From positions 1 to 64,000 of the forward strand of contig JAFDWS010000002.1 of NCBI GenBank assembly GCA_018268375.1: DNA of 64,000 nucleotides, read 5' to 3'. Below are positions 4,807 through 50,612 of the stretch, in pieces. The notes under the pieces are model-generated. The model saw nothing but the letters and a program-made list of their open reading frames with translations. It did not search any database and was not told the origin of the DNA. The translations under genes and the position numbers were made by a program. The number at the start of each line of letters is the position of its first letter. Position 1 is the first letter of the stretch. Origin of the DNA: Armatimonadota bacterium. Its GTDB lineage: Bacteria > Armatimonadota > Fimbriimonadia > Fimbriimonadales > Fimbriimonadaceae.

Positions 4807-4821
4807 AGTTCTCTCTTTTGT

Positions 4822-28096: not shown

Positions 28097-28163
28097 GACC
28101 AGTTCAAATTTCGCCAGTTGAAGCCGGCTGACCTTGCTTTGTCCATGTACAAGGAATTCCGAT

Positions 28164-29183
28164 ATGGCGTCAACAACCAAAAGAATGGACGCGAAAAAGC
28201 TAGTCGACTTTGAAATCGACTATTATGGGGTTTTGGGCTTGACGCGAGAAGGAGTCCCTGCAGACTCGAACCCTAAAGACCGACGCATCGCGGCAGAAAT
28301 ACTTGACAGTGCGTTTAACGCTTCCGCACGTCGATGTCACCCTGACTTGCATCGAGACGTTCCCGGCGCAGAAGACATGTTCAAGCTTGTCGTGCGCGCC
28401 CATACCATTTTGTCAGACCCAATTGCCAGGCGCTACTACGACTCGGGTGGCACTGACCAGTCGCGTTCAATTGAAATTGATGGAAAACGGTACGAAATCG
28501 ACTGGGACGACCTGGGTTTCTACCGACCTGGCACCACGGCCGACACAGTTGGCCATGGATTGTTCTGCAAATTGAATGAACGAAAAAAAGAACTCAATAT
28601 TGTCCCTGCATTTTTCCCAGAGTTGCCTCAGCACAATTATGAATGGGACTTCATGGTTCCAGACATGGGCGTCAAGCTCTCAGTTTCACTCGTTCCTGAC
28701 GAAGAAGACGTCCGGCGCTTGACCTCGGGAAGCGATGTCGGTCGTTCTTTGCCGTTCAAAATCTATGTGTGCTTCCCTCGAGCATGTCCGTATTTCTTCA
28801 AAGACGACGAAGAGGTGCACCAAGTAGGAGACCGGACCATCGTCCTTCCTGGCAGACTGAAGCGCACCATGTACGTGGATTACGACCTGCTAGAGACTAC
28901 ATTGCTGGACACGGCCCACGAGTTCGTAACTGGAGACGGGGTGGCCAATGCATTGACCAAACTCAGAGATGGGAGTCTGCAGGCTGAGCAACGACAAAAA
29001 GACCAACAAGCAGGTGCTCTAAACTGGCTTGACACTCAAGCCTTGAAAGCCGTGGAAACCGAACGGTTGCGCGAAATCATAAGGCGCAAAACTCCAAGGC
29101 AAAAATACGACCCGCACGCCGCAGACTTCTTAGGCCGCATCGCTGACACGCAGGTGGCCCGTCAGTCAAAGGACAAAAAATAA
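28164..29183 (+). CDS. J-domain protein with unique C-terminal region
   Basis: A 339-residue protein starting at ATG 28164, with AAGGA upstream. Residues ~16-95 form a J domain (DYYGVLGLTREGV, then CHPDLHRD with the essential HPD at 59-61, then HTILSDPIARRYYD). It has an insertion between helices I and II compared with DnaJ. J domains recruit Hsp70 and stimulate its ATPase, so the partner is probably the DnaK encoded at 45107-46831. There is no Gly/Phe region and no zinc finger, unlike the DnaJ at 49566-50612. The remaining ~240 residues are not recognised: they contain beta-rich segments (WDFMVPDMGVKLSVSLVPDE, RTIVLPGRL) and a charged helical C-terminus. This part probably selects a particular client. 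Confidence 0.8.
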   Translation: MASTTKRMDAKKLVDFEIDYYGVLGLTREGVPADSNPKDRRIAAEILDSAFNASARRCHPDLHRDVPGAEDMFKLVVRAHTILSDPIARRYYDSGGTDQSRSIEIDGKRYEIDWDDLGFYRPGTTADTVGHGLFCKLNERKKELNIVPAFFPELPQHNYEWDFMVPDMGVKLSVSLVPDEEDVRRLTSGSDVGRSLPFKIYVCFPRACPYFFKDDEEVHQVGDRTIVLPGRLKRTMYVDYDLLETTLLDTAHEFVTGDGVANALTKLRDGSLQAEQRQKDQQAGALNWLDTQALKAVETERLREIIRRKTPRQKYDPHAADFLGRIADTQVARQSKDKK

Positions 29184-29222: not shown

Positions 29223-30581
29223 TTGGCAAAACACGCGTACGTAATTGACACATGCGTTCTGATACATGACCCTTCCGCACTTTACAAGTTCCAAGACAAC
29301 GACATGTACCTCCCACTTGCCGTTGTCGACGACTTAGACGAACTAAAACAGAGGAGAGACCCGACTGGCTGGGCCGCTCGAGAAGTGTTCAGGCACCTCG
29401 ATAAGCTGAACCTTGAAGACCTAGTGTCAAAAGGCGTCGTGATGAACAGCAAAGGAGGAAAGTTGTTCATCTACAATATGGAAGCACCAGCGACCAAGGG
29501 CGAGGTGCCTGTCATCACTAGGGTGAACAGCGACAACGCCATTATCCAGACGTGCTTGATACTCAAAGCAAAGTCTCCTCGTAAAAAAGTGGCGATTGTC
29601 ACCAAAGACACCGGCCTCCGTGTGCGTGCCCAGTCTATGGGCTGCGCTGCTGAGAACTACAGAAGTGACTTGCTCGAAGACGAAGCCTACGAAGGAATTC
29701 GCTCGGTCGTCATCGAGTCTGGTGACGACTGGTCAATCCTATATGGCGACCATGACAATATTGACATCACGGAATTGAGTCAAGCAATCCAGACAGAATT
29801 GACTGACCTATCCCCGAATGAGTTCGTGGTGTTCCAACACGGTACAGCTTGTTGCCCGTGTTGGTTTAAGAAGGGCAAGTTGCACGTCTTACGGGACAAA
29901 CACGGGCATAAGCCGGACTACATGGGTGTCAAACCGCATAATTTGGAACAACGGTTCGCAATGATGGCATTGTCTGACGACGATGTGCCTCTGGTCGTCT
30001 TGTCAGGTCAGGCCGGTACTGGAAAAACAATTTTGTCGTTGGCAGTAGCATTGCAGAAAGTCCAAGACGGCACATACGACCGAGTGGTGGTCATTAAGCC
30101 TAATGTCCCGGTCGGTGGTATTGACATTGGTGCCTTGCCTGGTGACAAGTATGAAAAGTTGTCGGCATGGCTAGGTCCGATTAAGGACAACGTCCAGCAG
30201 CTCACTGCAGACCGTCGCAGGGCAAGTCAAAGCTATCAACAAATGTTGGACGACGGGCTTATCGAGGTCGAGGCATTGAGTTACATCCAAGGCCGCTCGA
30301 TAACCAACAGTGTCATCATTGTCGACGAGCTCCAAAACGTCAGTCCTCGTGTGGCCAGAATGGTAGTAGAACGATGCGGCAGAAATTCCAAAATCGTACT
30401 ATTGGGTGACCCTAGTCAGGTGGAAAACCCCTTTTTGGACATCAAATCGAACGGCCTGGCTCATGCGACGCTAGGTGCCAAAGATTCGGAACTGGCCGCG
30501 GTTGTGCAGTTATCCAAAGTGGAACGCTCACAATTGGCCGCAGCTGCCTCAAAAATCTTTGCCAGACCAGAAGCACGATAG
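29223..30581 (+). CDS. PhoH-family protein with N-terminal PIN domain
   Basis: A 452-residue protein of the PhoH2/YlaK type: an N-terminal PIN RNase domain fused to a PhoH ATPase. The PIN part has the acidic metal ligands in YVIDTCVLIHDP (D9), VVDDLDELK and the VTKDTGLRVRAQSMG loop. The PhoH part has Walker A VVLSGQAGTGKT near residues 261-269, an IDIGALPGDKYEKL motif and Walker B VIIVDELQNV near residues 364-371. Family members are RNA helicase/nucleases linked to RNA turnover and are common in phages. The start is TTG, supported by a strong AAGGAG site eight bases upstream. It follows the J-domain gene after 39 bases. Confidence 0.93.
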   Translation: MAKHAYVIDTCVLIHDPSALYKFQDNDMYLPLAVVDDLDELKQRRDPTGWAAREVFRHLDKLNLEDLVSKGVVMNSKGGKLFIYNMEAPATKGEVPVITRVNSDNAIIQTCLILKAKSPRKKVAIVTKDTGLRVRAQSMGCAAENYRSDLLEDEAYEGIRSVVIESGDDWSILYGDHDNIDITELSQAIQTELTDLSPNEFVVFQHGTACCPCWFKKGKLHVLRDKHGHKPDYMGVKPHNLEQRFAMMALSDDDVPLVVLSGQAGTGKTILSLAVALQKVQDGTYDRVVVIKPNVPVGGIDIGALPGDKYEKLSAWLGPIKDNVQQLTADRRRASQSYQQMLDDGLIEVEALSYIQGRSITNSVIIVDELQNVSPRVARMVVERCGRNSKIVLLGDPSQVENPFLDIKSNGLAHATLGAKDSELAAVVQLSKVERSQLAAAASKIFARPEAR

Positions 30582-30592
30582 GTCTGGCGTGT

Positions 30593-30625
30593 ATAAGCCC
30601 CCTCGAGTCCTAACAGGGGGCTTAT
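30593..30625 (+). terminator. Strong hairpin between phoH and the propeller gene
   Basis: ATAAGCCCCCT and AGGGGGCTTAT form a perfect 11-base inverted repeat with an 11-base loop. It lies after the PhoH stop at 30581 and only seven bases before the ATG at 30633. No run of T follows, so it may terminate poorly. The 3' arm contains the only G-rich stretch that could serve as a ribosome-binding site, so the hairpin may instead control translation of the next gene. Confidence 0.6.
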
Positions 30626-30632
30626 AGACTCT

Positions 30633-33600
30633 ATGGCATTCTCCCATCGTTGGCGGAAACACTATACTGGCACTGGTTACACTGTAGTCAACGAAGGACT
30701 TTCAGTGCTCGACTTGGGCACTTACAAGGCCAATACTTACGGGAGCGACTCCGCCTCTAAGAAGGCTGTCGTCAGTCTCAGGTTCGCTGGAACCGAGGCC
30801 AAATCGGTCAAGGTGTGGTTGGACGCGTCAAGCGTAGACCTGATGGCGCCTGACGGGACGGTCACCCCTAGAGTCGATTTATCAGACCGTGGGTACACTT
30901 TCAAGGGAACCATCGTTGACGCATATCGAGTTGCCTATGCACTTGGAACCGAGAACGAAAATGAGTCAAACGTATACTCTGCCGGCGAAGAAAACAATGG
31001 AATAGTGCAATTGACGGCTCACTCCTTAGACAGTTATTCGGGGAGCTATAACTACGACGGCACTCAAATCATTTTTGTGAGCGACCGCGGAGGTCGGAAG
31101 CAAATTTACCGCGCCAACGCAGACGGCTCTGGAGCCGTGGTGCTGACGCCGCCTGACCAAAACGCCATAGACCCACATTGGTGCAAGGTCACCAACCCGC
31201 TGTCAGCGAGCTTCAATAAAATCGTTTATGCATCTGACCTACATGGCGGATGGCAGTTGTATACCATGAACGCCGATGGCACTGGTCGCACTAGATTGAC
31301 CAACAGGACAACCGGCAGCTACGACGGAGATGATTACTCTCCGGCCTGGTCATACGACGGCACGCGCATCGCATTTGTCAGCACGCGCAACTCTGGTGCG
31401 GAGCAAATCTACCGCATCCTTTCTAATGGGACTGGCACAACTGCTGTTTTGGCAGATGGATTCTCTAATATTGACCCGAGTTACTCACCTGTCACTAACA
31501 CTATCGCCTTTTCGTCCAACAGAACGGGAAGCTATGACATTTACACCGTGCTTGACGATGGTACCAGCTTGGCCCGAGTCACCCAGACTGGGCGCGATGC
31601 GACGCAGCCTGCTTGGGTGGACAACGACACGTTGGTCTTTGTGACGCGGTCTAACGCGACCAAAAATCTGTACACCGTGCAGACCAATGGCACAAGCATG
31701 TCGCGAGTGACATACTCGGCCGAGAATGACGGGTCTCCAGAAGCGAACCCGGCTGGTTCGTTGTTGATTTATGACACAGTCAGGGATAAATTCCGCTGTG
31801 TCGTAAAGTCGTCGTCCACTGGCGTGCCCATCACACGCTTGACACAAAATAGTCCTGAGAGCTTTTGTCCAGCATTTGATAGGACAGGTGAATTTTTTGC
31901 CTTTTGTAGCGACCGTGGCACAGGGGCAATCAATCTGTATTACACCGGGTCAGACTTGGACATCAATTCGGCTACTCAAATCACGAATAACACTAGTGTT
32001 AGTTGGCAGCCTACTTGGAGCGTCGATGGTAATACTTTGGCGTTTTCTACAAATCGCGACGGAAACTTTCAGATTTACTCCATTGGCAAGAACGGGACTG
32101 GACAAACCAGGCTGGTAAACAACGCCTTTGACTGTACGTTCCCCACATGGGTCTACGCTTCGTCTCCGGTCAATGAAAGAATTGCCTACATGAGCAATGC
32201 CACAGGGTCTCATCAAGTGTATTTAATGCACACTAATGGCACTAGTCAAACTCAGTTGACCAGCAGTGGCACTAACATTTGGCCATCAGCCTCGCCTGAT
32301 GGGACTAAAATCGCCTTTGCCTCCAATCGAGGTGGTGGCGAGTTCATGCTGTACGTCATGAACGCTGACGGCACCGGACAGACCGCTTTGGGCTCCCATG
32401 TGGTCTCATCACCTGTTACTTGGTCCGGAGACAGTCAACAATTGGCGTTCAACCGTGACAACTTTGAAATTTACACCGTCGATGCCAGTTCTGGTGAGGT
32501 CATCGCTCGTGTGACTCACAACAGTATTCAAGAGTTTTATATGGCCTGGGACCCGGACGGCACTGTCATTGTGTTTGATTCGGAAAACTCTTCAGGTCGT
32601 CGCAGTTTGAAATACATCGACCCTACTGTGGGCGAAGAGGTGTCAGTCGACAGCACTGATTCTAAGTATGGAGGTTCTTGGTCTCACGACGGCTCGAGTA
32701 TTGTGTTTAGCCGCATCAATGCTTCCGGCCGCGAACGACTGTACCAATGTGACTTCGATGGCGACGACAAGACTTTGGCAACTATCGAGTCGGTGCTTGA
32801 CGACCGAATGGCATTGTACGCGCCAAGCGCCAACAGGTTATATTTCGAACGCAAATACCCTGGGCTCAATACTTCCATTTGCTATTTGACTGGCAACACG
32901 GTTACAGTACAGTACACTACCCCTTACAGCACAGAAGTGTTGCTGGACGTGTCAAGCGATGGGTCTAGGCAACTTTTGGGATATGGTGGTAAGCTGTTCG
33001 AGCTAAATGGCACCACTCTCACGGAACTTTTGACGTCAGACGGCCTCTCTATCGGTCCCACGCACGCTTGTTACAATCCCGACCGCAAACGCATTGGTTT
33101 GATAATGCCTGGCGGCATAGGCACTTATCCACTGAAGCCACAGATTTTTCTTTACACGATTTCCACTAAGAGGTTGGTAAAAGTCACCGATACCGACACT
33201 GAAAAAAGCTACATTTCGTGGCGTGCCAAGTCTCCGGAACTCATGTACACCGATGAAGTGTCCGCAGGCGTGCATCGACTGCATATACTGAAGCTCAACG
33301 GCAGTGGCAAACAACGCTTTATCACCCTCGGCACAGATGACAGTCCTACCACTGCAGAAATCGGGGGACGATGGTGCGCTGACGGTCAAATGGCCACTTA
33401 TCAGAGGGTTTTTAGCTCTGGTGCCGCAGAGAGTGGCGCGTACTTGACGCAAGGTCCCACTCCTGGCGGAATTTTATCGTCTGGAGCCGTCTTGACTTCT
33501 CCGTACTGTTCATATGACCAAACAACCGGCACGGCTTATTTTTCAGCTACAGATTCCATTTACGAAGCCAGTGGAATCTATTCCAAGACCGGCTATACCG

Positions 33601-36044
33601 GAGCTTTCCGGCACACTAACTTTGGTTACAACGACCGTTTCGGGTGCCTTAACCCGGACAAAGACCGCATAGTCGTTCAGTCGATGTACATGGACACGTC
33701 TGGCGCAGTGCAGAGCATATACATAGCTGACTCGGCCACGCCATGGGACCGCGAACTGTTAAAAACAAGCGCAGAGTTTCCAGACTGGGGCAGCAACGAC
33801 ACAATTTTGTACACGTCGCCTCAAGGTCTCCGCACCATCAATCCTAACGGTTCAGGAGACGCCGCAGTGCCAAATACAGTGGGCGCCACACAGGGGCGCT
33901 GGTCTGCGGACGCAACAAAAATCACCTTTGTGCTGGATGGCAGTGTGTGGGTCTGTGATTCTGATGGTTCTAACGCGGTAGAAGTCGCCGCGGCGGTGAG
34001 TGTTTATGGCAATCGTAGCCCCTCCTTCACACCCGATGGACAAGAAGTGGTGTTCGAGGCTGTGTCTCCGAACGGCAACGGCCAGATTTATCGCGTCGAA
34101 GCGGTCGAGGGTGGCGAAGTGTCTGAAGTTTCATTTCCCGGAAAATGGCCTCGTATGGATTACTTGGCCGGTCGCGTGCTTTACAGCAAGGAGCTTGTAT
34201 CGAGCAATGTTTTGGCGTGGAGGAACATTGACGGCACTGAAGAAACCGAGTTGACTGAGTCTTTTGTGGACGACATTGAACCTCGATACAACCCGGCTAC
34301 CAACGGTATTGTTTACTCTTCCAATTCACCTGGCACGTTCCAGTTGTATTCCATGACCTCGTCAGGTGGGTCAATCACTAGATTGATGACCAATTCTGCC
34401 AATGACCGACAACCTGCGGTCACTAACGCTGGTGATTTTATTGCTTTCGCCAGTGACCGTGGCACCAACTCTAACCAGGACATTTATCGGTATCAAGTCA
34501 GTGACCAAAGTGTGGTGCGCCTGACTACAAGCACTGGTGAAGACTATAAACCTTGCTGGAACAACACGGGCAGTAAAATCGTGTTCGTAAGCACGCGCAC
34601 AGGCGCGTCACAGATATGGGTCATGGACAACGACGGAGCCAACCAGACCCAAATTACAACTCTGGGGCACAACGAATGTCCAGTCGTGTCACCCGATGGC
34701 TCAACAGTACTTTTTGTCAGTGACCGCTCAGGGCAATGGAAGCTGTACCAGGTGCCTATCGCTGGCGGGACTGAGACCCTGGTGTACACTGGCGACAAAG
34801 AAGTCAGGCAGGTCGCTTGGAGGTCTGACGCTGGTCAGATAGCCTTCGTGGGAGGCACGAACGGTCATTTGCATATTTACACTAGGAACACGCCTTTGGG
34901 CTCGTCAATAGAACCCGTTGCGCTTTGGACGAGTGGAGAAAACGCCGATGTGTGGTACGGCGAGTCAGACGCTAAAATTGTCTTTTCCGCGAACATTGAC
35001 GGGCAAGCTGAAATTTACAAAGTGGCAGTCGCCGGTGCCGGAGAAGTCAGTTTGGCCAGGAGTTCTTACGCAAACGCCTATCAACCAGCGTGGAACCTTG
35101 ACGGCACGCGTTTAGCATACGTTAGTCAGGGCAATGGCGGGGTGAACATTTTTACACTTGACGCTGAGACTGACGAGCTGGCAGTCCTGACTACTAGTGT
35201 CGGCACTTTGGAAATGAACTTGCATCCCAAATGGGAACCCGTAAGTAGCAACCCTCGCATCGCTTACCAGACCAACGTGAGCACGGTACCGTTTACTGTT
35301 TATGGGTTTTCAGTGTCAGGATTTGCATTAGGCAACTTTGGAATTGCGGTCATGAACGACGACGGCACACAACAAATGTACTACACAGACCCCAACACAT
35401 CTGACTCTGTAGAGCCGGCTTGGTCTCCTGACGGTGCGTATATTTACTTCGCCAGAAGGACAAGCGGCAACTATGAATTGTGTCGTGTCACGTCTTCTGG
35501 CACAGGACAAGCAGTGTATTTTGCCCCTGACGGCAATTCTCATTCGCCTTGCGTGCACCCGACAGACGGTTCCTTGGCTTACTCCAACGACCGCACGGGT
35601 GAGTCTCAAATTTATGTGTACGACGCCGAAAACGGCACGGACACAAGGTTGACGCACAACACATCCGAGTGCACAGCCCCGCAATGGACGCCAGACGGAG
35701 AGTTTGTGATATACACGAAAGAATCTCCCGAAGGCGAAAAAAGCCTCTGGCGCATAAAGGCGGACGGCACAGGAGACGAAGAATGGTACGACCCTGATGG
35801 CGTCGAGGCCTATGACGCCGCCAGTACGCTCGCCGATGCATTTGGCAGTGTTGTGCTTCAAGACCCTTCTGCGTGGCCAGACTTGCCGCTCGACAAGGAC
35901 AGTGCTTGGGATTTTGGGTTGGGCAACATGAATCGCCGCATGATAGGACAGTCTAAGAAGTTGGCCGTGGTCATAAAACCGCCTTCTTCTGAAGGCCCTC
36001 TCGAGCTAGTGAATCTACGACTAAGGGCAAGCTTTCAGGTATAG
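30633..36044 (+). CDS. Giant TolB/PD40 beta-propeller protein
   Basis: An 1803-residue protein made almost wholly of PD40/WD40-like TolB repeats of about 40-43 residues. Typical cores are SYDGTQIIFVSDRGG---IYRANADGSG, DGTRIAFVSTRNSGAEQIYR and PDGSTVLFVSDRSGQWKLY. Roughly 35-38 repeats would fit, enough for five or six propellers. A distinct ~125-residue N-terminal region (HRWRKHYTGTGYTVVNEGLS at its start) and a ~90-residue C-terminal region (ending LRLRASFQV) flank them and may anchor the protein. There is no signal peptide. PD40 arrays bind peptides, proteins or sugars; bacterial TolB lies in the periplasm. In a phage this is likely a virion surface protein or a large scaffold. Its start lies behind a strong hairpin. 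Confidence 0.8.
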   Translation: MAFSHRWRKHYTGTGYTVVNEGLSVLDLGTYKANTYGSDSASKKAVVSLRFAGTEAKSVKVWLDASSVDLMAPDGTVTPRVDLSDRGYTFKGTIVDAYRVAYALGTENENESNVYSAGEENNGIVQLTAHSLDSYSGSYNYDGTQIIFVSDRGGRKQIYRANADGSGAVVLTPPDQNAIDPHWCKVTNPLSASFNKIVYASDLHGGWQLYTMNADGTGRTRLTNRTTGSYDGDDYSPAWSYDGTRIAFVSTRNSGAEQIYRILSNGTGTTAVLADGFSNIDPSYSPVTNTIAFSSNRTGSYDIYTVLDDGTSLARVTQTGRDATQPAWVDNDTLVFVTRSNATKNLYTVQTNGTSMSRVTYSAENDGSPEANPAGSLLIYDTVRDKFRCVVKSSSTGVPITRLTQNSPESFCPAFDRTGEFFAFCSDRGTGAINLYYTGSDLDINSATQITNNTSVSWQPTWSVDGNTLAFSTNRDGNFQIYSIGKNGTGQTRLVNNAFDCTFPTWVYASSPVNERIAYMSNATGSHQVYLMHTNGTSQTQLTSSGTNIWPSASPDGTKIAFASNRGGGEFMLYVMNADGTGQTALGSHVVSSPVTWSGDSQQLAFNRDNFEIYTVDASSGEVIARVTHNSIQEFYMAWDPDGTVIVFDSENSSGRRSLKYIDPTVGEEVSVDSTDSKYGGSWSHDGSSIVFSRINASGRERLYQCDFDGDDKTLATIESVLDDRMALYAPSANRLYFERKYPGLNTSICYLTGNTVTVQYTTPYSTEVLLDVSSDGSRQLLGYGGKLFELNGTTLTELLTSDGLSIGPTHACYNPDRKRIGLIMPGGIGTYPLKPQIFLYTISTKRLVKVTDTDTEKSYISWRAKSPELMYTDEVSAGVHRLHILKLNGSGKQRFITLGTDDSPTTAEIGGRWCADGQMATYQRVFSSGAAESGAYLTQGPTPGGILSSGAVLTSPYCSYDQTTGTAYFSATDSIYEASGIYSKTGYTGAFRHTNFGYNDRFGCLNPDKDRIVVQSMYMDTSGAVQSIYIADSATPWDRELLKTSAEFPDWGSNDTILYTSPQGLRTINPNGSGDAAVPNTVGATQGRWSADATKITFVLDGSVWVCDSDGSNAVEVAAAVSVYGNRSPSFTPDGQEVVFEAVSPNGNGQIYRVEAVEGGEVSEVSFPGKWPRMDYLAGRVLYSKELVSSNVLAWRNIDGTEETELTESFVDDIEPRYNPATNGIVYSSNSPGTFQLYSMTSSGGSITRLMTNSANDRQPAVTNAGDFIAFASDRGTNSNQDIYRYQVSDQSVVRLTTSTGEDYKPCWNNTGSKIVFVSTRTGASQIWVMDNDGANQTQITTLGHNECPVVSPDGSTVLFVSDRSGQWKLYQVPIAGGTETLVYTGDKEVRQVAWRSDAGQIAFVGGTNGHLHIYTRNTPLGSSIEPVALWTSGENADVWYGESDAKIVFSANIDGQAEIYKVAVAGAGEVSLARSSYANAYQPAWNLDGTRLAYVSQGNGGVNIFTLDAETDELAVLTTSVGTLEMNLHPKWEPVSSNPRIAYQTNVSTVPFTVYGFSVSGFALGNFGIAVMNDDGTQQMYYTDPNTSDSVEPAWSPDGAYIYFARRTSGNYELCRVTSSGTGQAVYFAPDGNSHSPCVHPTDGSLAYSNDRTGESQIYVYDAENGTDTRLTHNTSECTAPQWTPDGEFVIYTKESPEGEKSLWRIKADGTGDEEWYDPDGVEAYDAASTLADAFGSVVLQDPSAWPDLPLDKDSAWDFGLGNMNRRMIGQSKKLAVVIKPPSSEGPLELVNLRLRASFQV

Positions 36045-36136: not shown

Positions 36137-36613
36137 ATGCGAGACGTAGAAGCAAAGCTGCACGAAATGTTGCTCGAGGTCGCACCGTGCTGCTACGACG
36201 AAGAAGAGCAGGCAAAGATTGTTGCTTTCGCTTCGTCGTTACTGGACGATTCTACTCGTCTGGCCTCTTTACACGAAGCGGCGTTTGAAAGCCACATGAT
36301 GGACGCCATGCTGCAGGCGATTGGGCAATTGCGCGAATGGGCTGACCCAGTTGAAATAAATGGCATTGATGGCCGCGGTCTTACCGCTGAGCAAATCGTC
36401 CGTTCTGCAGGCCGTTCTATTGCCGACACAGGCATGCACATCATTAACGAAGAAGACCTCGACGTATTCTTCAACCAGCCGGACTACCAAGACCCCAACG
36501 GCTATACAATGGACGATGCAGCGGTGTTTTTAGACGGCGAAGAAGCACACCCTGACCGATATTTTTTCAAACCAGGCCGCGGTCGCCATCGAAGCGATTC
36601 GCAATCGAGGTGA
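36137..36613 (+). CDS. Hypothetical protein
   Basis: A 158-residue acidic protein with no recognised family. The first ~85 residues are helical (VEAKLHEMLLEVAP, LDDSTRLASLHEAAFESHMM). A middle segment (LTAEQIVRSAGRSIADTGMH) leads to an acidic region rich in Asp, Asn and Tyr, with a basic end (GRGRHRSDSQSR). It follows the giant propeller gene after 92 bases in which I see no promoter or terminator. It is separated by four bases from the next gene. Both may be virion-associated. Confidence 0.6.
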   Translation: MRDVEAKLHEMLLEVAPCCYDEEEQAKIVAFASSLLDDSTRLASLHEAAFESHMMDAMLQAIGQLREWADPVEINGIDGRGLTAEQIVRSAGRSIADTGMHIINEEDLDVFFNQPDYQDPNGYTMDDAAVFLDGEEAHPDRYFFKPGRGRHRSDSQSR

Positions 36614-36617
36614 CAAT

Positions 36618-37259
36618 GTGAAGCGCCACGCCCAAGCCCTACCTGGCGCGCCGCCCCCCGGGCCGCCGGCCGCTGCACCACCTCCTCTTCCACCACCGCC
36701 CGGAGGCGCATTGATGCCGCCTGGTGCTCCGCCCGCTCCTACCGACCAAGGCCCGCGTCAAGAACTATCAGGACCGCTGGATTCATTGGCCAAAATCCTA
36801 TACGATTACGATATTGGCTCCAAACTTGACGGTAACGCCGCGGAAGAACCTGAAGACATCGCGATGGACATTTGGATGGCCTATGGCGGTACAGAACTTG
36901 GTGATGACACTGTCTCAAAACAAGGCAAGCGGACCAAAAAAGCTCTTAAGTCTTCGCCTCAAGAACAGGACAAAGAACGCTTGTCGACAGAAAACAGTCG
37001 ATGGGAGCGTCTTCCTTTAGGTCAAACCATTGAAGACATTGCCTCACTCGAGGAACTTGCGACCATGCTTAACGGCGTGTCGTATGGGTCAGTCAAGGCC
37101 AAAGCCGCCCCGCCTGCCCCGCCTGGTGGCGGCATGCCACCACCCATGGCCGAAGCATCTTCATTATTGACGCGTTATGCGGCACTTTTAGATATGCGTG
37201 GAGACTTTGAAATAGCTGACGCAGTCGATGCATTGGCATTGTTATTGGTGTCAAAATGA
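36618..37259 (+). CDS. Proline-rich protein with conserved helical end
   Basis: A 213-residue protein starting at GTG. Residues ~8-45 are almost entirely Pro, Gly and Ala (a PPP-rich stretch interrupted by GPPAAAPPP). A second proline-rich block lies near residues 165-180. Between them is an acidic-to-basic helical region; the C-terminus (SSLLTRYAALLDMRGDFEIADAVDAL) is a helical hairpin-like motif. No family is assigned. Proline-rich tracts suggest a flexible linker or a binding site for other proteins. Its stop overlaps the ATG of the next small gene (ATGA). Confidence 0.6.
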   Translation: MKRHAQALPGAPPPGPPAAAPPPLPPPPGGALMPPGAPPAPTDQGPRQELSGPLDSLAKILYDYDIGSKLDGNAAEEPEDIAMDIWMAYGGTELGDDTVSKQGKRTKKALKSSPQEQDKERLSTENSRWERLPLGQTIEDIASLEELATMLNGVSYGSVKAKAAPPAPPGGGMPPPMAEASSLLTRYAALLDMRGDFEIADAVDALALLLVSK

Positions 37260-37460: not shown

Positions 37461-39392
37461 ATGGCGCGCAAGCAGACCTATGACACTCAATCCATCGTTG
37501 TGATGGAACCCATGGAAGCAGTACGCCTGCGACCAGGCATGTACGTCGGCGACGACGGCGAACGTGGGATGAACCACCTGATTTGGGAGGTCGTCGACAA
37601 CGCAGTAGACGAGGCGATGCAAGGGCATTGCACTGTCATCGCCCTTGAACTGGCGAACGACGGCCTTACTGTCACGGTGGAAGACAATGGCCGCGGCATT
37701 CCTGTCGACCCGCACCCCTCAGATGGTCGCTCTACCCTTGAAGTCGTAATGACGGTTTTGCACGCGGGCGGCAAATTTGGCCGCGACGAGGCATACACTG
37801 AGACTGGCGGGCTGCACGGCGTAGGTGTATCTTGTGTCAATGCTTTGTCAGAACATTTCCAAGTCAATGTATGGCGGATGGACAAATCAGCCGGAGCGAC
37901 TGGAGAGTTTTCACAAACATTTGCGGCCGGGAAGCCTCTCGACAAAGTAAAGCGTGTCGGTCAGGCCAATAAAACTGGCACCAAAATTACTTTTCGACCC
38001 GACTCGTCGATTTTCAAAACAGTGCGCGCTTACGACCCCGCGACCATTGTGCGTCGATTGCGCGAAGTGGCCCATTTGAACCCTGGTTTGACGGTGATGT
38101 TCTATGACGGGGTCAATGACAAAGACTACACCTTCGTGTCGGAAGGGGGCATTGCAGACATGTTGCGCGATTTTGTCGGCACGGCCAGCGATGTGTACCC
38201 AGAAACGCCTTTGGTCATAGAGGGCAAGAGCAACGGCGTGACTGTCAAGTTGGGCATGCAATATCGAGAAGTCGACGAAGAGAGTCTGCACTCGTACGCC
38301 AACAACATACATACTCCGGACGGGGGCACCCATCTGACAGGGTTCAAGCGCGCCTTGACTGTAGCGGTAAACTCGGCAGCGAAGCAGGCTGGCTTAGTAA
38401 AAGACAGCTTGCAGAGCGACGATATTAGGGACGGTCTGGTCACGGTGTTGACAGTCAAGTTGCGCCAGCCTCAATTCGAAGGACAGACTAAAGGCCGCCT
38501 GGGCTCACCTGAGGCCGACTCTGGCGTCAGCAGCGTGGTCGCCGAAAAGTTGGGTGAGTATTTTCAGCGTGACCCACAATTCTTGAAACGCATTGTCGAC
38601 CGCGCTTTATTGGCCCAAAAAGCTCGCGAAGCCGCCAAGCAACAGTCTGAAATCATCAAACGAAAAGGGGCATTTTCCAAGACTACGCGGTTGCCTGGCA
38701 AATTGAAGGATTGCAACGTGGACGACCGCAGTGACAGCGAGCTGTTCATTGTAGAAGGCGATTCGGCCGCCGGTTCTGCCATCGACGGTCGAGACCCGCA
38801 GACGCAAGCAGTTTTGCCTTTGCGCGGCAAGATTATGAATGCCGAAAAGAATGCGCTTTCAGAAATGTTGAAGAATGAGGAAGTGCGAAGCTTGGTGACG
38901 GCGATTGGTTCCGGAGTTGAAATACCGGGAAAAGAAAGCTTTAGGCTGAAAGACAGACGCTATGAACGCATCATTGTGATGACGGACGCCGATGTGGACG
39001 GCGGTCACATCGAAACGTTGTTGCTGGCTTTCTTCTATCGGTACATGCGACCGCTTGTGGTCGAGGGCTGCCTATATTTGGCTGTGCCGCCACTATACAA
39101 AGTTGAAGACGGCAAAGGCAACAAGCAATATTGTTGGGACGAACAGTCCTTGCGCAAAGCTACCGATAAGTCCAAAAGTGCTCGTGTGACCCGGTTCAAG
39201 GGTCTAGGTGAAATGAATCCAGCAGAATTGGCAGAGACAACTATGAACCGTGACACACGCAAGCTGGTCAGAGTCAGCGTGCCCGACATTGACGAGGCCA
39301 ATGCCATTTTGACGACTTTTATGGGCAAGTCTGTCACCGCAAGGAAAGGTTACTTGCTCGAGCGCAGCCACCAGGAGGTGCTCCTTGGCTAA
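37461..39392 (+). CDS. DNA gyrase/topoisomerase IV subunit B (GyrB/ParE)
   Basis: A 643-residue type IIA topoisomerase ATPase subunit. The GHKL ATPase domain has EVVDNAVDEA (residues ~43-52), EDNGRGIPVD, and GGLHGVGVSCVNALS (~115-129). The transducer domain follows. The TOPRIM metal centre has LFIVEGDSAAGSA (~428-440), PLRGKIMNAEKN and MTDADVDGGHIETL (~506-519), then the C-terminal RFKGLGEMNP motif. It works with the GyrA/ParC subunit encoded next to change DNA supercoiling or decatenate DNA, using ATP. Length fits the short form, without the insert of E. coli GyrB. Which activity (gyrase or topo IV) cannot be told from sequence alone. It overlaps the next gene by eight bases. Confidence 0.95.
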   Translation: MARKQTYDTQSIVVMEPMEAVRLRPGMYVGDDGERGMNHLIWEVVDNAVDEAMQGHCTVIALELANDGLTVTVEDNGRGIPVDPHPSDGRSTLEVVMTVLHAGGKFGRDEAYTETGGLHGVGVSCVNALSEHFQVNVWRMDKSAGATGEFSQTFAAGKPLDKVKRVGQANKTGTKITFRPDSSIFKTVRAYDPATIVRRLREVAHLNPGLTVMFYDGVNDKDYTFVSEGGIADMLRDFVGTASDVYPETPLVIEGKSNGVTVKLGMQYREVDEESLHSYANNIHTPDGGTHLTGFKRALTVAVNSAAKQAGLVKDSLQSDDIRDGLVTVLTVKLRQPQFEGQTKGRLGSPEADSGVSSVVAEKLGEYFQRDPQFLKRIVDRALLAQKAREAAKQQSEIIKRKGAFSKTTRLPGKLKDCNVDDRSDSELFIVEGDSAAGSAIDGRDPQTQAVLPLRGKIMNAEKNALSEMLKNEEVRSLVTAIGSGVEIPGKESFRLKDRRYERIIVMTDADVDGGHIETLLLAFFYRYMRPLVVEGCLYLAVPPLYKVEDGKGNKQYCWDEQSLRKATDKSKSARVTRFKGLGEMNPAELAETTMNRDTRKLVRVSVPDIDEANAILTTFMGKSVTARKGYLLERSHQEVLLG

Positions 39393-41787
39393 GAAACCAA
39401 CCACCAGCCCCAAGGGCGTTGGCGCAGTCGAAGATTGCAGCCTGCCTCGCGTCCTTGACAAGGCTTACGTCAAATACTCGACTCATGCCATCCTGCAGCG
39501 CGCGATACCGGATGCCCGCGATGGGCTCAAGCCGGCACAACGGCGCCTGTTGTACGCCATGGACCGTCTCGGACTGTCCGATGGGGACAAATACGTCAAG
39601 TGCGCCAAAGTCTGCGGATATACAAGCGGCGACTTCCACCCCCATGGCGAGTCCGTACTGTATCCGACGTTAGTCCGCCTTGTGCAAGACTGGCTGCTCA
39701 GATACCCGTTGGTGTCCGGACAAGGCAACTTTGGCACAGTCGACGGATTGGACGCCGCTGCAATGCGGTACACCGAAGCGCGTCTGAGTGTGTACGGTGC
39801 TGCGGTCGTCGACGACGTAGATGGCGACGCTGTAAATTTCCAACCCAACTATACTGACTCGGACAAAGAGCCGGTCGTAATGCCAGGGTTGTTCCCCAAC
39901 TTGCTGTGCAATGGCGGTTCAGGCATCGCAGTCGGAGTCGCGTGCAACTTCGCCCCCCATAACCTAAGGGAAGTCGCTGCGGTCATTCGCGAGTGTGCAG
40001 TCAATCCAAACCCCACAGTCGAGCGACTGCTAGAACTTATGCCTGGTCCGGATTTCCCAACTGGCGGGACGTTGCGCGGTCAGTCCGCAGTCAAGCAGTA
40101 CTATTCGACAGGGAAAGGCACTGTCGTACTAGACGGCAAATGGGAAGTATCAAAAGACGCCAAGGGCGTTCAAAGCATCACTGTCACACAATTGCCATAC
40201 GGGTCTTCACCAGACCGTTTGGCACAACAAGTCGCGGACTTAGTCCAAAACAAGCGACTAGAGGGAGTGACTGACCTAAAGGAACTTAGTCACCGAGACA
40301 AGACCGGTCAGAAACATATTTGTGTAGTGTTCATTTTGGCCAAGGAGGCCGACTCCGACCGCGTGATTAAGGTGTTGCTTCGCCACACGTGTCTAAGAAG
40401 CACCTTTTCCGTCAACCACACGGCCATAGTCGACGGTCGAGCAGGCGAGGGTGTCTCCCTGGTTGACTTGGCACGGTCGTACTACGCACACAGGCGCGAG
40501 GTGTTGAAGCGTCGCAGCGAACAAGAACTCATCAAGTTAACTCAACGCATACACGTCCTCGAAGGTCTTGTGGGCGTTTGCGGCCGCATTCGCGAAGTTG
40601 TCGAGGTGATACTGGCTTGTGACTCACCTGCATCTGCACGAGCCCAGCTTGTGTCAGACGGCTATGTCAAAACGGACGAACAAGCTGCTGCCGTCCTTGA
40701 AATCAGCCTTAAGCGACTGACCCGCATGGAAATCGACCAGTTGATGGCGCAAAAGACCGAGGCTGAGAAAAAGGCCAACAAACTGACCAAGCTTTTGGGC
40801 AGTGAAAAAGCCATGCGCGAAGCGGTTTTACAACAATTGGACGACTTTGCAGACAAGTACGGAGATGACCGACGAACAGCCCTGGGGCCTGAGCCCGAAG
40901 CTGTCGGCACCCAAGATTTGATACAAGACGAAAACGTGACGGTCTTCGTCAGTCGAGAAGGGTTCGTCTGGCGCTCGCCTGCCGGGGCAGGCACTACTGG
41001 GATGCTGTCCGCAGACACACGGCTTTTGGGCCGGGTCGTTTTTGTCACGAACAAAGGAATGGCATATTGCCGATTTGGGCACGACATACCGGAACCTGGC
41101 AAGGGCAAAGGCACTCACATTGGTCAACTGCTGGGTTGCCGACCCGACGAAACAGTCTTGTCGGTATACGACGTCGACGAAGTCCGTAGCGCCAAATGTC
41201 TTCTTGCAACGCGTGGTGGCCTCATAAAGAAAATGCCCGGCTCACTGATGGAGACCAAAAAGCGAGCTGGCATACCGTTGCTCAAACTTGGAGAATCCGA
41301 TTCTTTGCTGTGTGCGGACAAATGCCCTGATGCGGCCGACGTGTTCGTGGCAACCGCCAACGGCAAGGGAGTGCGCTATCCTGCCTCGTCTGTCCCGGTG
41401 CAAGGCCGGGGCTCGGCCGGCGTCACTGCCATGCGTCTCGCTGCCGGCGACGCGGTCGCTCAAGTCGTGTTGTTGGAAAAAGACTTTGATGGATATGCGC
41501 TGTTTGTGACTTCCTTAGGATACGTCAAAAAGACCAGCGCAACGAAGTTCAGATGCTACTCTGGCCGGATGGCGTTGGGCATGAACACCATTGATAACAT
41601 CAAAAAAGACAGAACCGGCGTCGTCGTCGGCATGGTCGTGTTGCCCAAGAACGGTTCTTTTGCGGTTCATACTCGTGAAGGAGGCGTCATGGTAATCGGC
41701 GCCACCGAGGTGCGCGACTCGGAGCGGCCTGTGCGTACTGCCACGCTTGACAAAGGCGATGAATTGGTGGCAGTGACCACGGCATAG
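39385..41787 (+). CDS. DNA gyrase/topoisomerase IV subunit A (GyrA/ParC)
   Basis: An 800-residue DNA-cleaving subunit. The active tyrosine is Y129 in AAMRYTEARL; GQGNFGTVDGLDAAAM precedes it. Residues 82-94 (GDFHPHGESVLYP) correspond to the quinolone pocket. E. coli Asp82 and Asp87 are Glu89 and Pro94 here, while the Ser83 equivalent (Ser90) is kept. The tower, coiled coil and C-gate follow, and the last ~300 residues form a beta-pinwheel of repeated blades (VVFVTNKGMAY, CLLATRGGLIKKM, ALFVTSLGYVKK). A VPVQGRGSAGV segment is the nearest thing to a GyrA box but lacks its usual form, so negative supercoiling is not assured. The start is TTG, with an AGGAGGTG site inside the end of the upstream subunit gene. 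Confidence 0.95.
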   Translation: MAKKPTTSPKGVGAVEDCSLPRVLDKAYVKYSTHAILQRAIPDARDGLKPAQRRLLYAMDRLGLSDGDKYVKCAKVCGYTSGDFHPHGESVLYPTLVRLVQDWLLRYPLVSGQGNFGTVDGLDAAAMRYTEARLSVYGAAVVDDVDGDAVNFQPNYTDSDKEPVVMPGLFPNLLCNGGSGIAVGVACNFAPHNLREVAAVIRECAVNPNPTVERLLELMPGPDFPTGGTLRGQSAVKQYYSTGKGTVVLDGKWEVSKDAKGVQSITVTQLPYGSSPDRLAQQVADLVQNKRLEGVTDLKELSHRDKTGQKHICVVFILAKEADSDRVIKVLLRHTCLRSTFSVNHTAIVDGRAGEGVSLVDLARSYYAHRREVLKRRSEQELIKLTQRIHVLEGLVGVCGRIREVVEVILACDSPASARAQLVSDGYVKTDEQAAAVLEISLKRLTRMEIDQLMAQKTEAEKKANKLTKLLGSEKAMREAVLQQLDDFADKYGDDRRTALGPEPEAVGTQDLIQDENVTVFVSREGFVWRSPAGAGTTGMLSADTRLLGRVVFVTNKGMAYCRFGHDIPEPGKGKGTHIGQLLGCRPDETVLSVYDVDEVRSAKCLLATRGGLIKKMPGSLMETKKRAGIPLLKLGESDSLLCADKCPDAADVFVATANGKGVRYPASSVPVQGRGSAGVTAMRLAAGDAVAQVVLLEKDFDGYALFVTSLGYVKKTSATKFRCYSGRMALGMNTIDNIKKDRTGVVVGMVVLPKNGSFAVHTREGGVMVIGATEVRDSERPVRTATLDKGDELVAVTTA

Positions 41788-41789
41788 GT

Positions 41790-41829
41790 TCATTGCCTTT
41801 GTAGGGTGAAAAAGACCTACAGGCAATGA
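41790..41829 (+). promoter_or_regulatory. Hairpin enclosing the start codon of the next gene
   Basis: TCATTGCC-TT-TGTAGG at 41790-41805 pairs with CCTACAGGCAATGA at 41816-41829, leaving a two-base bulge and a ten-base A-rich loop. It begins three bases after the GyrA stop. The ATG at 41826 lies in its 3' arm, and there is no T-run, so the structure could hide the start codon and control translation, or attenuate read-through from gyrA. Confidence 0.6.
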
Positions 41830-42830
41830 TTTACCGAGACACCCCAGGTGCATACGACGCTGGACAGGTCGCAACTGGAATCTTGGTCCGCGGCATACGC
41901 GTCGATGGTTACTATACGATTGTCGAGTCGTGCGACGTGAACTTCGAGCATGAAGTCGACTTGAAGACATATATTCAGGGCGGTCCCAATTCGTCTATTG
42001 TAGACATGGGCAAAAAGGTCTTAAAAGGCCAAATCGTGTTACCTGTCCGTGTCGACCGCGACGGTGCGCTTGAAATGGCTACTCGGCGACTCTTGTCCGC
42101 GGCCCATGACCCAAGCGCGTCAATCACTCTTGACACCAATCATATCTTGTCGTACAGCCGCATTGCTGCTGACAATGGTCAAGGAGGAGACAGTGATAAC
42201 GAGTTGTTGTCATTGGACTGCATGGTTATCGAAGAACTTTCTTTGACGGCCGCCCCAGACACAGGTGTAAAACTCACGGTGTCGTTCACTGGCATGGTCG
42301 ACGCACGTGCGCCAGCCGACTTGGTCGCGCCCCCGTCAAGTTTTCTACTGGGCAGGACGTTGTCTTTCCAAGACTGTGATTGTTCGCGATTGGCCAGCGC
42401 CATGCGCAATGTAGTGTCATTCAATGTAACGGTGCGAAACAAAATTATCGCGCCGGCCTTTATCCCTCCTTGTGACGTGGACAACCGCGCGACTTCTTGG
42501 TCGGGCACTTCTCCGAACCAACCTGCAGACTGGGCTTTCATGCCCGAGCAGCCGTTGATACTAGGCATCGAAGAAGTGCGATGGGGCGGAGATTTTCAAG
42601 AAGTGCTGCGCAAAGGCGGAGACACCGAGACTCACATGCACGCAGGCTGGATACAAGACGAAGATTTGACATTCACCTTCGGTCCGGCTCGAGCCGTGTT
42701 CAAGGTGCCGCTGTACAAAGTGTCTCGTGTCCCGCTTGTCGCGGGCATCCTAAACCGCAAAACTGAGTTTATGGGCGTGGTAAAACCCAGCCGTTTGAAC
42801 TCGCCCACCTCGTTGTTCTTTTTCAGCTAA
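41826..42830 (+). CDS. Tail-tube-like virion protein, paralogue 1
   Basis: A 334-residue protein with no catalytic motif. It shares with the next gene a segment near residue 45: DLKTYIQGGPNSSIVDMG here, KPETYIQGTPKTRVLNIG there, followed in both by a strand (QIVLPVRV / DLQMPILV) and then a region ending in D-P. This pattern of beta strands around G-x-x-I-L-P is common in phage tail tube and related proteins, so a structural role is likely. The middle holds SLTAAPDTGVKLTVSFTG, a further strand-rich section. There is no strong ribosome-binding site, and a hairpin covers the start. Assignment by pattern only. Confidence 0.5.
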   Translation: MIYRDTPGAYDAGQVATGILVRGIRVDGYYTIVESCDVNFEHEVDLKTYIQGGPNSSIVDMGKKVLKGQIVLPVRVDRDGALEMATRRLLSAAHDPSASITLDTNHILSYSRIAADNGQGGDSDNELLSLDCMVIEELSLTAAPDTGVKLTVSFTGMVDARAPADLVAPPSSFLLGRTLSFQDCDCSRLASAMRNVVSFNVTVRNKIIAPAFIPPCDVDNRATSWSGTSPNQPADWAFMPEQPLILGIEEVRWGGDFQEVLRKGGDTETHMHAGWIQDEDLTFTFGPARAVFKVPLYKVSRVPLVAGILNRKTEFMGVVKPSRLNSPTSLFFFS

Positions 42831-42914: not shown

Positions 42915-43946
42915 ATGCCTATCAGGAACGAGTTAATAGGTGCATTCAAAACCATCAGAATCGGTGGCACTAGGTTCGTTCTGGCCGAAAATGCATCACG
43001 TCGTCGCGAAATGGATGTAAAGCCAGAGACTTACATTCAAGGCACTCCTAAAACACGGGTGCTCAACATCGGTGGTGCTTCAGAACAAATCGACTTGCAA
43101 ATGCCTATCCTGGTCGGCCCGGCTTCAGTCCTTGACGGCCGCAGTCTATTGTTGGAGCAAATTACGAACGCACTAGACCCTGTGAATGCGACACTGCCGC
43201 TGATTCAAAATGCAAGCATTGCGATTAACGAGGCCCAAACAGCCATTAACTTGTCGCTCATCAGCGACGGAGACCCAAACCAGCCACCTGTCTTCGAGGT
43301 CTTTGGCGATGTCCCGGCCGGTTTTCAAGGAGCGGGGAACAATGTCCCGTCTTATCTGTTGGACCCTTCGCATGCAGGATGTCCCACGCGTGTAGCCCGG
43401 TTCTACGACTTCCGCGTCAATCTGGCGGGCTTTTTCATGTACGTCATGGACCTCAAGCTGCAAGTCCAAGTCTCCACTGAAAAGCACAACTTCTTGGGTG
43501 GCACCACTGATTGTGACCCAGGCGACGATGTCCAGGATTTTGAACGCAATTGGGGCACCCAATTTCCCTTCCTTGGCGTGTCAGGTGTCACAGTGTCAGG
43601 CACTGGCACTGCCGCCGTCCTTTTGGAAGACCTGACCGGAGATTACGATTTCGATGACTACGACCAAGACTACGCATGGCAAGAGGGCGACGAATCCCTG
43701 AACTTGTCGTACGGACAAGGCGCGGGCTCAGACATTACGTTACAGCTTCCAGGTCAGCCTGTGTGCGTACCAAGCACTTTTTGCGTGCGCATCTACAACC
43801 CGAACACGTCTCAGTGGGAGAGTTTGTTCTATGATGGGTCTTCAGAAGTCGTAGACCTCAGTAAAAGCGTTGTCAAAATGTCTTCGTTCAATGTGACAAC
43901 GGGATTGCTCACGGCTCAGTTTGAATTTTTCTGCTGGGTGAAGTAA
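42915..43946 (+). CDS. Tail-tube-like virion protein, paralogue 2
   Basis: A 343-residue beta-rich protein homologous to the previous gene over the N-terminal half (same TYIQG-x-P motif near residue 43). Its N-terminus (FKTIRIGGTRFVLAENASRR) and later parts (VARFYDFRVNLAGFFMYV, MDLKLQVQVSTEKHNFLGG) fit a tube- or baseplate-type fold. The C-terminal ~120 residues hold an acidic, Asp/Tyr-rich stretch (TGDYDFDDYDQDYAWQEGD) that may bind metal, and a small beta domain ending CWVK. It follows its paralogue after 84 bases without a clear promoter. A tail tube or minor tail function is inferred from the paralogy and neighbours. Confidence 0.5.
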   Translation: MPIRNELIGAFKTIRIGGTRFVLAENASRRREMDVKPETYIQGTPKTRVLNIGGASEQIDLQMPILVGPASVLDGRSLLLEQITNALDPVNATLPLIQNASIAINEAQTAINLSLISDGDPNQPPVFEVFGDVPAGFQGAGNNVPSYLLDPSHAGCPTRVARFYDFRVNLAGFFMYVMDLKLQVQVSTEKHNFLGGTTDCDPGDDVQDFERNWGTQFPFLGVSGVTVSGTGTAAVLLEDLTGDYDFDDYDQDYAWQEGDESLNLSYGQGAGSDITLQLPGQPVCVPSTFCVRIYNPNTSQWESLFYDGSSEVVDLSKSVVKMSSFNVTTGLLTAQFEFFCWVK

Positions 43947-44452: not shown

Positions 44453-45110
44453 ACGTTTTCCTCAACAGGTCAGACCGGTCTTCTTCCCGGTATTGGTCGA
44501 CTTTGTATGAAAAACGGTGCAATCCTCGTACTCGCCCTAGATTCTTGACCGCACTCCTGTGAACAGGAGTGACGTAACCTACATGGTCTTGTAGGCCATA
44601 CCCTGGATGTACCGTGTCAAGCTCTTGCATCAGCGTGTCTCGGTAGACCTTCGCGACAATAGACGCGGCAGCAACGACATGCGACAAAGCGTCGGCCTTG
44701 GACATCATAGTGTGCGGCTCGAGTCCACAATCGGGCATTTGGTCTAACACATATAGGTTCACGTCGTCTTCCAAGTTCTGTGCGGCCGCTTTTGCGGCCA
44801 TGCGCGAGGCGTGTGCGTTCGCCCAAGTCAAGCCCTTTCGGTCAATCAGTCGTGGCTCTACTTCGTACACCGCCCATGCTAAAGCCTTGCTTTTGACTTC
44901 TTCAGCAAGTGCAGGCCTCAAGTGTGCTTTGACTTGCTTACTGTCTGTCAATCCCGGAATAAATGTCTCTCGGGCAAAAACGACAGCACCGACAACCAGC
45001 GGTCCGGCCCAGGCCCCTCGGCCCACTTCATCGACACCGCACAGCAATTCGCCATATTTTTCGCGCAGAACGTTGTCATTGGCCCAAGCAGTTTCGGGGG
45101 GCACTCTCAT
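44430..45110 (-). CDS. rnhB: Ribonuclease HII
   Basis: A 226-residue RNase HII, which cuts the RNA strand of RNA-DNA hybrids and removes single ribonucleotides from DNA. Motifs: CGVDEVGRGAWAGPLVVGAV (catalytic D27, E28), VLDQMPDCG (third Asp), MMSKADALSHVVAAASIVAK (fourth Asp, in KAD) and HPGYGLQDHVGY with a following HRSAVKNLG. Length is normal. The start is taken as ATG 45110, which overlaps the dnaK stop in an ATGA arrangement. A reading from 45173 would lie well inside dnaK. In a phage it would remove RNA primers or R-loops during replication. Confidence 0.93.
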   Translation of the reverse strand: MRVPPETAWANDNVLREKYGELLCGVDEVGRGAWAGPLVVGAVVFARETFIPGLTDSKQVKAHLRPALAEEVKSKALAWAVYEVEPRLIDRKGLTWANAHASRMAAKAAAQNLEDDVNLYVLDQMPDCGLEPHTMMSKADALSHVVAAASIVAKVYRDTLMQELDTVHPGYGLQDHVGYVTPVHRSAVKNLGRVRGLHRFSYKVDQYREEDRSDLLRKTCERTKVQ

Positions 45111-49414: not shown

Positions 49415-49569
49415 GCTGCGTCGTCGGTTTCGGTTTCTTCAGTGGGTTGGGCTGCTTCCTCAAGGTTTTCGTCGTCGCTCATCATATTGGTGGCGACCAC
49501 CTCTTTGCCGTCTTTCGACGGCCGGAACACAGACTCAACCTTTCCACCTGGGATTGTGCGGTTCATCAT
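49411..49569 (-). CDS. Tiny acidic protein between dnaJ and the membrane gene
   Basis: A 52-residue open reading frame: it starts at ATG 49569, overlapping the dnaJ stop (ATGA), and ends at 49411, overlapping the start of the next gene (ATGA). This double overlap makes it very probably translated. The first half is basic-polar ([20 protein letters not shown]) and the second strongly acidic ([19 protein letters not shown]). No family is recognised; it is too short for a domain call. Confidence 0.65.
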
Positions 49570-50612
49570 GTGCTTTTCACTTCCTGACTTTCCCTGGCCT
49601 TCAGATAGTTTTGAAGAGCAGATTCTTGTTCTGCAGTCAGGTTCTGAGGCATTTTGTACACAACCACGACTACTGCGTCGTGCCGCGTGCCATACATGTC
49701 GGTCAAACCTTTTTCTTCAGCCACGAACTGAGTGCCTGGTGGAGTCATCTTAGGAAGAACAATACGCAATTCCTCTTTTCCCTTGAGTCCCGCAGCGACC
49801 ATGGTGCAACCCAGCATGGCTTTGACAGGGTCGACTGGCAACTCATATACGGCCAAGTGACGTTGAAACTTGCATTTTTTGCTTACAGGCATGACATGCA
49901 CAAGCAAGTCTCCTGGTGGAGCCTCTGGGTGTTCGCGGTGTCCTGCCTGAGTAACGCGCAATTGTACGAAGGCCGCGCCGGCCGGTATCTCGAGTTCCAT
50001 AGACTCATTGGAAGTAATAAGACCGATGCCGTTACAATAGTCGCACAAGTTGCTATGTGTCATGCCGCGCCCGTTGCACTGCCTGCACGTGCCTAAGTCT
50101 TGCTGCATGACCATGTTCCCGCGCCGGTGGGTGTTTATGCGTCGACCGCGACCTCCGCAATCGGCACAAACAAGTGTCTCACCGAGACCTCCGCTGCCTT
50201 GGCAATGTTGGCAATACTCAGTCCTGCGAAAAGCTACTTGAGCCTTGTGTGGCTCAAAAAGCTTGGAAGCGTCTACCTCCAGCGTGACCTCTATGGGACT
50301 GTTGGTGTGCCTATAAAACCGCCCTCCTGGATTTACACCAAAGAAGTGGCTCATGATGTCTTCTGGTCTAAAACTAGGCTCGACGGGCTCACCATCAGGC
50401 CCAATAAGCCCTTGGTCGTACTTTTGACGCTTTTCGGGGTCGCTCAAAACAGCGTTGGCCTGACTGATTTCTTTGAACTTTTCTTCAGCCTCTGAATTGC
50501 CAGGATTGACGTCAGGATGATATTGACGCGCTAGTTTCCTGTACGCACTTTTGATTGCCTTGTCGTCAGCGTCTCGTGGGACACCAAGGACTTCGTAAAA
50601 GTCTGCTGCCAT
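49566..50612 (-). CDS. dnaJ: DnaJ chaperone
   Basis: A 348-residue class A J-domain chaperone. The J domain (residues ~4-68) has the HPD motif at 32-34. A linker of ~35 residues is shorter and less Gly/Phe-rich than in E. coli DnaJ. The zinc domain has four CxxCxGxG repeats: [24 protein letters not shown] and CDYCNGIG. The client-binding beta domains follow, and the C-terminus ends in a charged helix. It delivers unfolded proteins to DnaK and stimulates its ATPase. It lies five genes from dnaK on the same strand but in a separate cluster with protease genes. The stop overlaps the next small gene. Confidence 0.95.

Follow-up and report, generated by a model that had tools for sequence, protein, structure and literature searches.

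A capped 1803-residue PD40-repeat protein, a candidate virion-surface protein of a huge tailed phage

The locus and the phage genome around it

The window analyzed takes in the first 64 kb of contig C5, which is 1,363,254 bp long and belongs to a metagenome bin. It encodes a giant protein of 1803 amino acids, and the open reading frame in the original prediction was confirmed as real, with exactly the coordinates and ATG start listed in Table 1. Genes for a DnaJ-domain protein and a PIN-PhoH protein lie upstream and two small conserved genes and both gyrase genes follow. A 334 amino acid protein in the same run matched Phage_tube_2 weakly (E 3.8e-4; ortholog E 1.4e-5; both just under the curated cut-off). 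The adjacent 343 amino acid protein was found in one of 291 genomes of the phylum, namely that of the window itself. Phage chaperone-like genes encode a DnaK-like protein, two DnaJ-type proteins, GroEL, and GroES (window positions 45107-46831, 28134-29183, 49566-50612, and 1-525).

Table 1. Features of the giant gene and its neighborhood (window positions).
Feature	Position	Strand	Basis
DnaJ-domain protein, conserved neighbor	28134..29183	+	Pfam, synteny
PIN-PhoH protein, conserved, directly upstream	29223..30581	+	Pfam, PHROG, synteny
Hairpin, ending 6 nt before the ATG	30592..30626	+	Folding, z-score, ortholog
1803 aa giant protein gene	30633..36044	+	ATG start; ortholog approximately 60% identical over full length
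N cap, approximately aa 1-115	30633..30977	+	Common to four phages
First PD40 array, aa 136-722	31038..32798	+	Blade HMM, Pfam
Middle, aa 723-1089, blade-like by spacing only	32799..33899	+	No blade, Pfam or PDB match
Second PD40 array, aa 1090-1725	33900..35807	+	Blade HMM, Pfam
C cap, aa 1745-1803	35865..36041	+	Common to four phages
158 aa conserved neighbor	36137..36613	+	Synteny; no family found
213 aa conserved neighbor, Pro-rich N terminus	36618..37259	+	Synteny
GyrB	37461..39392	+	Pfam, PHROG, synteny
GyrA	39385..41787	+	Pfam, PHROG, synteny
334 aa tail-tube-like protein (weak)	41826..42830	+	Phage_tube_2
343 aa protein, weakly similar to its neighbor	42915..43946	+	No family found

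From base 1 to approximately 531 kb the contig is phage-like in composition, with a GC content mostly of 0.51-0.54 and of 0.56-0.57 at 224-304 kb. That higher GC region is nearer to the bacterium in composition and has short ORFs, with strong hairpins in some leaders. Past approximately 531 kb the contig is bacterial with a GC content of approximately 0.57-0.62 (past 704 kb, 12 stretches of 20 kb were sampled). The phage part encodes a portal and a large terminase, identified with PHROG, together with a DNA polymerase. With approximately 531 kb of phage-like sequence, a portal and a large terminase, it was classed as a very large tailed-phage genome. It also carries gyrase, PhoH, and DnaJ. Among the matches to its DnaK-like protein were Lak phages and phage records from metagenomes, 484-735 kb in size. 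Sixty-one tRNA genes were predicted by ARAGORN between 64 and 524 kb of the contig and none in the window. Four adjacent Gln tRNAs were among them (stretch L049:3076-3404), and one gene was called as tRNA-Pyl with the anticodon CTA (stretch L055:178-252).

A scan with blade segments of the giant protein identified one close relative, IMGVR_UViG_3300044957_000763 (G291), of 478,840 bp with a GC content of 0.45. Neighboring genes used as queries gave no relative beyond this same contig, and a PhoH scan gave 10 short contigs with partial matches of 31-40%.

The contig begins within a GroEL gene adjoining GroES. Another GroEL gene is located at C5:529,691-531,304, where the composition turns, and window bases 1-24 are identical to C5:531,104-531,127. 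GroEL and GroES are adjacent in G291, and its gene order continues from the phage end of the contig into the start of the window (ortholog order was inspected over 0-150 kb and above 440 kb of C5). The phage genome therefore probably measures approximately 531 kb and is either circular or circularly permuted. The join of phage and bacterium within groEL is either an assembly chimera or a recombination, so the bin is no proof of the host. Identity along groEL at the junction showed no sharp switch.

A strong hairpin was predicted before the giant gene and this was borne out. The stem is 12 bp long (30592-30603 pairing with 30615-30626) with a z-score of -3.24. The ortholog has a hairpin at the same place, with a 13 bp stem and a z-score of -3.56. 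By minimum free energy the leader ranked sixth among those of the 561 genes called mechanically in the phage; that of the ortholog came first among the 18 scored in its 25 kb locus. An automatic consensus fold of the two leaders kept nine pairs, one of which was changed on both sides. The two leaders thus show conservation of a hairpin, which may terminate the dnaJ-phoH unit or act as a leader element; the originally proposed control of the start would be a putative role.

Repeat architecture of the giant protein

The giant protein matched PD40 (PF07676) in Pfam with an E-value of 3.2e-89 and a score of 291.8 bits against a curated cut-off of 20.9, while its G291 ortholog scored 257.7 bits. 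Using a self-built blade HMM, 22 blades scored above 20 bits, all within two arrays. The best-blade and summed scores were reached by none of 300 whole-protein residue shuffles; the HMM was trained on the protein itself, and this control speaks to repetition only, with family membership given by the Pfam match. When boundaries were placed by eye from the spacing, 35 blade-length units were counted. Approximately eight putative blades fall in the middle (residues 723-1089), where the best blade score was 1.3 bits, equalled in 10 of 300 shuffles, and where no Pfam match at E ≤ 1 or PDB match at E ≤ 10 was found. The prediction of about 35 PD40 repeats therefore stood for the 22 clear blades; the remainder depends on spacing set by eye, including a middle with no detectable blade. 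A total of approximately 35 is plausible and partly shown. With 22 clear blades, and approximately 35 by spacing, the propeller array would be very long for a viral protein.

Mean blade similarity against lag was searched for a higher-order period and had no clear peak, and the propeller size is therefore not readable from the sequence. AlphaFold (AF2) models from the two-sequence alignment were poor, with mean pLDDT values of 32.0 and 36.2, so that the five or six propellers originally suggested, and their closure, are putative. A Foldseek search with the second, poor model had LRP2, LRP6, and TolB among the 50 matches listed, with TM-scores of at most 0.27, and was given no weight as a sign of closure. 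No hydrophobic segment was present in residues 1-45 (best 19-residue mean 0.37), and no signal-peptide-like or membrane-like segment was found in the protein, as judged by Kyte-Doolittle hydropathy alone.

The ends of the protein were predicted to be unique, and neither terminus matched anything known in Pfam or PDB. For residues 1-135 the best Pfam and PDB E-values were 0.42 and 0.48. For residues 1725-1803 there was no Pfam match at E ≤ 1 and no PDB match at E ≤ 10.

The closest solved propellers were those of TolB (E 5e-15; 6e-28 with a two-sequence profile). PD40 blades above the PF07676 cut-off are a feature in common with TolB and other PD40 proteins. The likeness to TolB structures would suit the mimic originally proposed, one able to capture Pal or another partner in the Tol-Pal system. 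The giant protein differs from TolB/PD40 proteins in having 22 clear blades against one propeller, unique caps, and a phage locus, and it has neither a TolB_N domain nor a signal-peptide-like segment. TolB_N was absent from the whole protein at E ≤ 0.01 and from the N-terminal 135 residues and the ortholog at E ≤ 1. The domain was not found in the genome of the bin (0 of 1), which may not be that of the host, and two distant relatives have no propeller at the locus (see below). The proposal of a Tol-Pal mimic is thus unsupported and is considered very improbable.

Weak matches to the propellers of oligogalacturonate lyase and S9 peptidases could point to an enzyme of propeller type cleaving glycans or peptides. 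These matches are explained by the PD40 or DPP-type propeller common to those families, and no catalytic domain was matched in Pfam. An enzymatic role is equally hard to credit.

The array is uncommon in phages, as had been predicted. Of 50,697 phage records, four gave tBLASTn matches at E ≤ 1e-5, none of them spanning more than 23% of the 1803 residues. Phage records with PD40-like matches included Thermus phage Tsatsa and two unannotated fecal scaffolds. The Tsatsa gene, a "WD40 periplasmic protein," resembles the giant gene in giving a PD40-like match in a phage record, but it is 945 bp long and is flanked by a LexA-like regulator on one side and HEPN/integrase genes on the other, which is an accessory setting. 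One scan for relatives returned only the known ortholog and another one Undibacterium PD40 protein with 23% identity; two further scans yielded no relative. Partial PD40 matches were found in 53 of 101 bacterial genomes at E ≤ 1e-10, with at most four candidates scored per genome. Long frames in the matched bacterial genomes reached 1770 amino acids (G089) and 1734 amino acids (G097). Among the papers listed in literature searches, none was about the 1803 amino acid protein; one of those listed, PMC8805305, contains the word PD40 once.

Conserved caps and differing middles in four phages

The G291 ortholog has 1808 amino acids and lies in a syntenic block. It is 59.7% identical from end to end, the termini included, with 0.8% gaps. 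Codon positions 1, 2, and 3 differ by 33, 25, and 64% between the two genes, so the giant protein is under purifying selection (dN 0.35; dS saturated). Gene sets of 561 (window phage) and 472 (G291) genes of at least 100 amino acids, called with a simple ORF caller, gave 296 reciprocal best hits. The median identity was 57.1% for the 250 pairs aligned over at least 80% of their length, and 56% of these pairs were less conserved than the giant protein, making it an average gene. Segments of the fibre locus at 2806-11115 of the window matched a shuffled array in G291, and this mosaic locus is of the host-range type.

Propellers have been described in phage particles. Gp45 of phi11, P2 of PRD1, and gp131C of PhiKZ are presented in PMC4901313 as receptor-binding or candidate receptor-binding proteins; other accounts cover the Kelch protein CBB_552 of phage CBB and the nozzle propellers of T7 and SU10 (PMC5259590, PMC10607447). 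As far as these descriptions go, and it is by them that the giant protein is set apart, such propellers are single (Kelch domains in CBB), with no long PD40 arrays or caps. A giant repeat protein of propeller type, with a middle that is swapped in distant relatives, might then be the principal fibre by which the phage binds its receptor and sets its host range. Against this, the window phage and G291 proteins align end to end with few gaps, in contrast to the shuffled mosaic seen at 2806-11115. A protein with average conservation and so few indels does not look like such a fibre, and this role is considered quite improbable.

A portal scan gave 47 loci including G291 itself and one marginal match (22% identity). 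A profile of the giant protein and its ortholog was run over 20 portal-locus records and, besides G291, matched only G293 (378,848 bp). In G293 a 993 amino acid frame aligned with profile positions 1-120 (E 3e-8) and with positions 1750-1811 (E 3.8e-4); the blades were not matched. In G293 and in G292 (358,269 bp), more distant relatives than G291, the gene order is DnaJ, PhoH, X, the 158 and 213 amino acid homologs, GyrB, and GyrA, where X is the capped protein (991 amino acids in G293 and 1942 in G292). G293 has an additional frame of 146 amino acids between X and the 158 amino acid homolog. The giant gene thus sits between phoH and the 158 aa/213 aa/gyrB/gyrA genes in all four phages. Both caps and the position between phoH and the 158 amino acid gene were present for the 1803 amino acid protein.

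Against two-phage cap profiles G293 scored 31.6 bits (N) and 21.1 bits (C), where the best of 300 shuffles scored 4.0 and 3.6. G292 scored 7.5 bits with the N profile, which was not significant (best shuffle 7.7), and 7.6 bits with the C profile (best shuffle 4.0). With three-phage profiles it scored 30.5 (N) and 21.0 bits (C) at its extreme termini, values reached by none of 1000 shuffles. Judged by these scores, the caps are homologous across the four phages. The N and C caps showed no similarity to one another. A profile search for caps elsewhere in the window phage or G291 found none that was convincing, one weak N-cap match excepted. This was to a 1217 amino acid G291 protein (G291:50921-54574, E 0.0016; ortholog of C5:74263-77910), which might be another protein mounted in this way, or the match may be due to chance. 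A search with a four-phage N-cap profile, covering the records behind 46 of the 47 portal loci, matched three, namely G291, G292, and G293; these are profile members and the sole records over 121 kb, the other 43 being fragments whose misses are uninformative. Caps are known at four loci in total.

The middles of X are of another kind. No PD40 blade was found in them with the blade profile (best scores 2.5 bits in G293 and -1.9 bits in G292). NG[IV]Y motifs numbered six in G293 and seven in G292, with none in the 1803 amino acid protein or its ortholog. The middles matched phrog_2647, head decoration (5.7e-74 in G293 and 1.2e-27 in G292), phrog_11518, tail fiber (3.9e-57 and 2.3e-17), and phrog_24595, virion structural (2.1e-55 and 2.2e-22); these names are annotation labels and not functional tests. 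tBLASTn with G293 X matched 52 phage records, some annotated as tail fiber, head decoration, or virion structural protein. The giant protein shares its caps and locus with these NG[IV]Y-repeat proteins but differs from them in having neither such a repeat nor, in the PHROG search, a match to any of the three families. Comparison of the four sequences thus shows a long repeat array held between two conserved caps. All four phages have retained the caps and the locus, but the array consists of PD40 blades in two of them and of NG[IV]Y repeats in the other two.

Possible roles and significance

The 1803 amino acid protein is probably a modular virion-surface protein of a huge tailed-phage lineage, consisting of a capped repeat array. 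Support for the predicted place on the virion surface is indirect: the same locus and caps carry virion-PHROG repeats in two relatives, and neither a signal-peptide-like nor a membrane-like segment is present in the protein. Since the other kind of middle belongs to virion repeat families, the caps would probably mount the protein on the particle with the middle displayed. Through the caps the protein would be anchored or assembled on the particle, perhaps at the tail, and the array would project as a chain of several beta-propellers. The array may bind a surface ligand (glycan or protein), may decorate, stiffen, or brace the particle, or may do both. The virion reading is in keeping with the absence of a signal-peptide-like segment, with the tail-tube-like gene in the same run, and with the published propellers on phage particles. 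Against it, the gene has phoH and gyrase genes around it and is outside the fibre and portal clusters, the giant protein itself matches none of the three virion PHROG families, and no known virion domain was matched by the caps in Pfam or PDB.

The neighboring DnaJ, PhoH, and gyrase genes would suit an intracellular phage scaffold, whose array gathers phage or host proteins in takeover, replication, or assembly and which stays outside the particle. The hydropathy result, with no secretion signal, and evolution at the rate of an average phage gene also accord with such a scaffold. In G293 and G292, however, the middle that stands in its place is a repeat of virion-structural PHROG families, and a scaffold appears rather unlikely.

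The virion-surface reading can be extended, more tentatively, to a conserved socket on the particles of huge phages. In such a socket, two caps at a fixed locus could accept unrelated giant arrays, of propellers or of NG[IV]Y repeats, as exchangeable display modules with the mounting unchanged.

Many of the giant proteins encoded by huge phages have no known use. Should the caps prove to be a mounting for an array that serves as an exchangeable display part, cap sequences would tag such parts in other huge phages. If true, this would be a natural example of a particle changing its displayed fold, with the fold class replaced wholesale.
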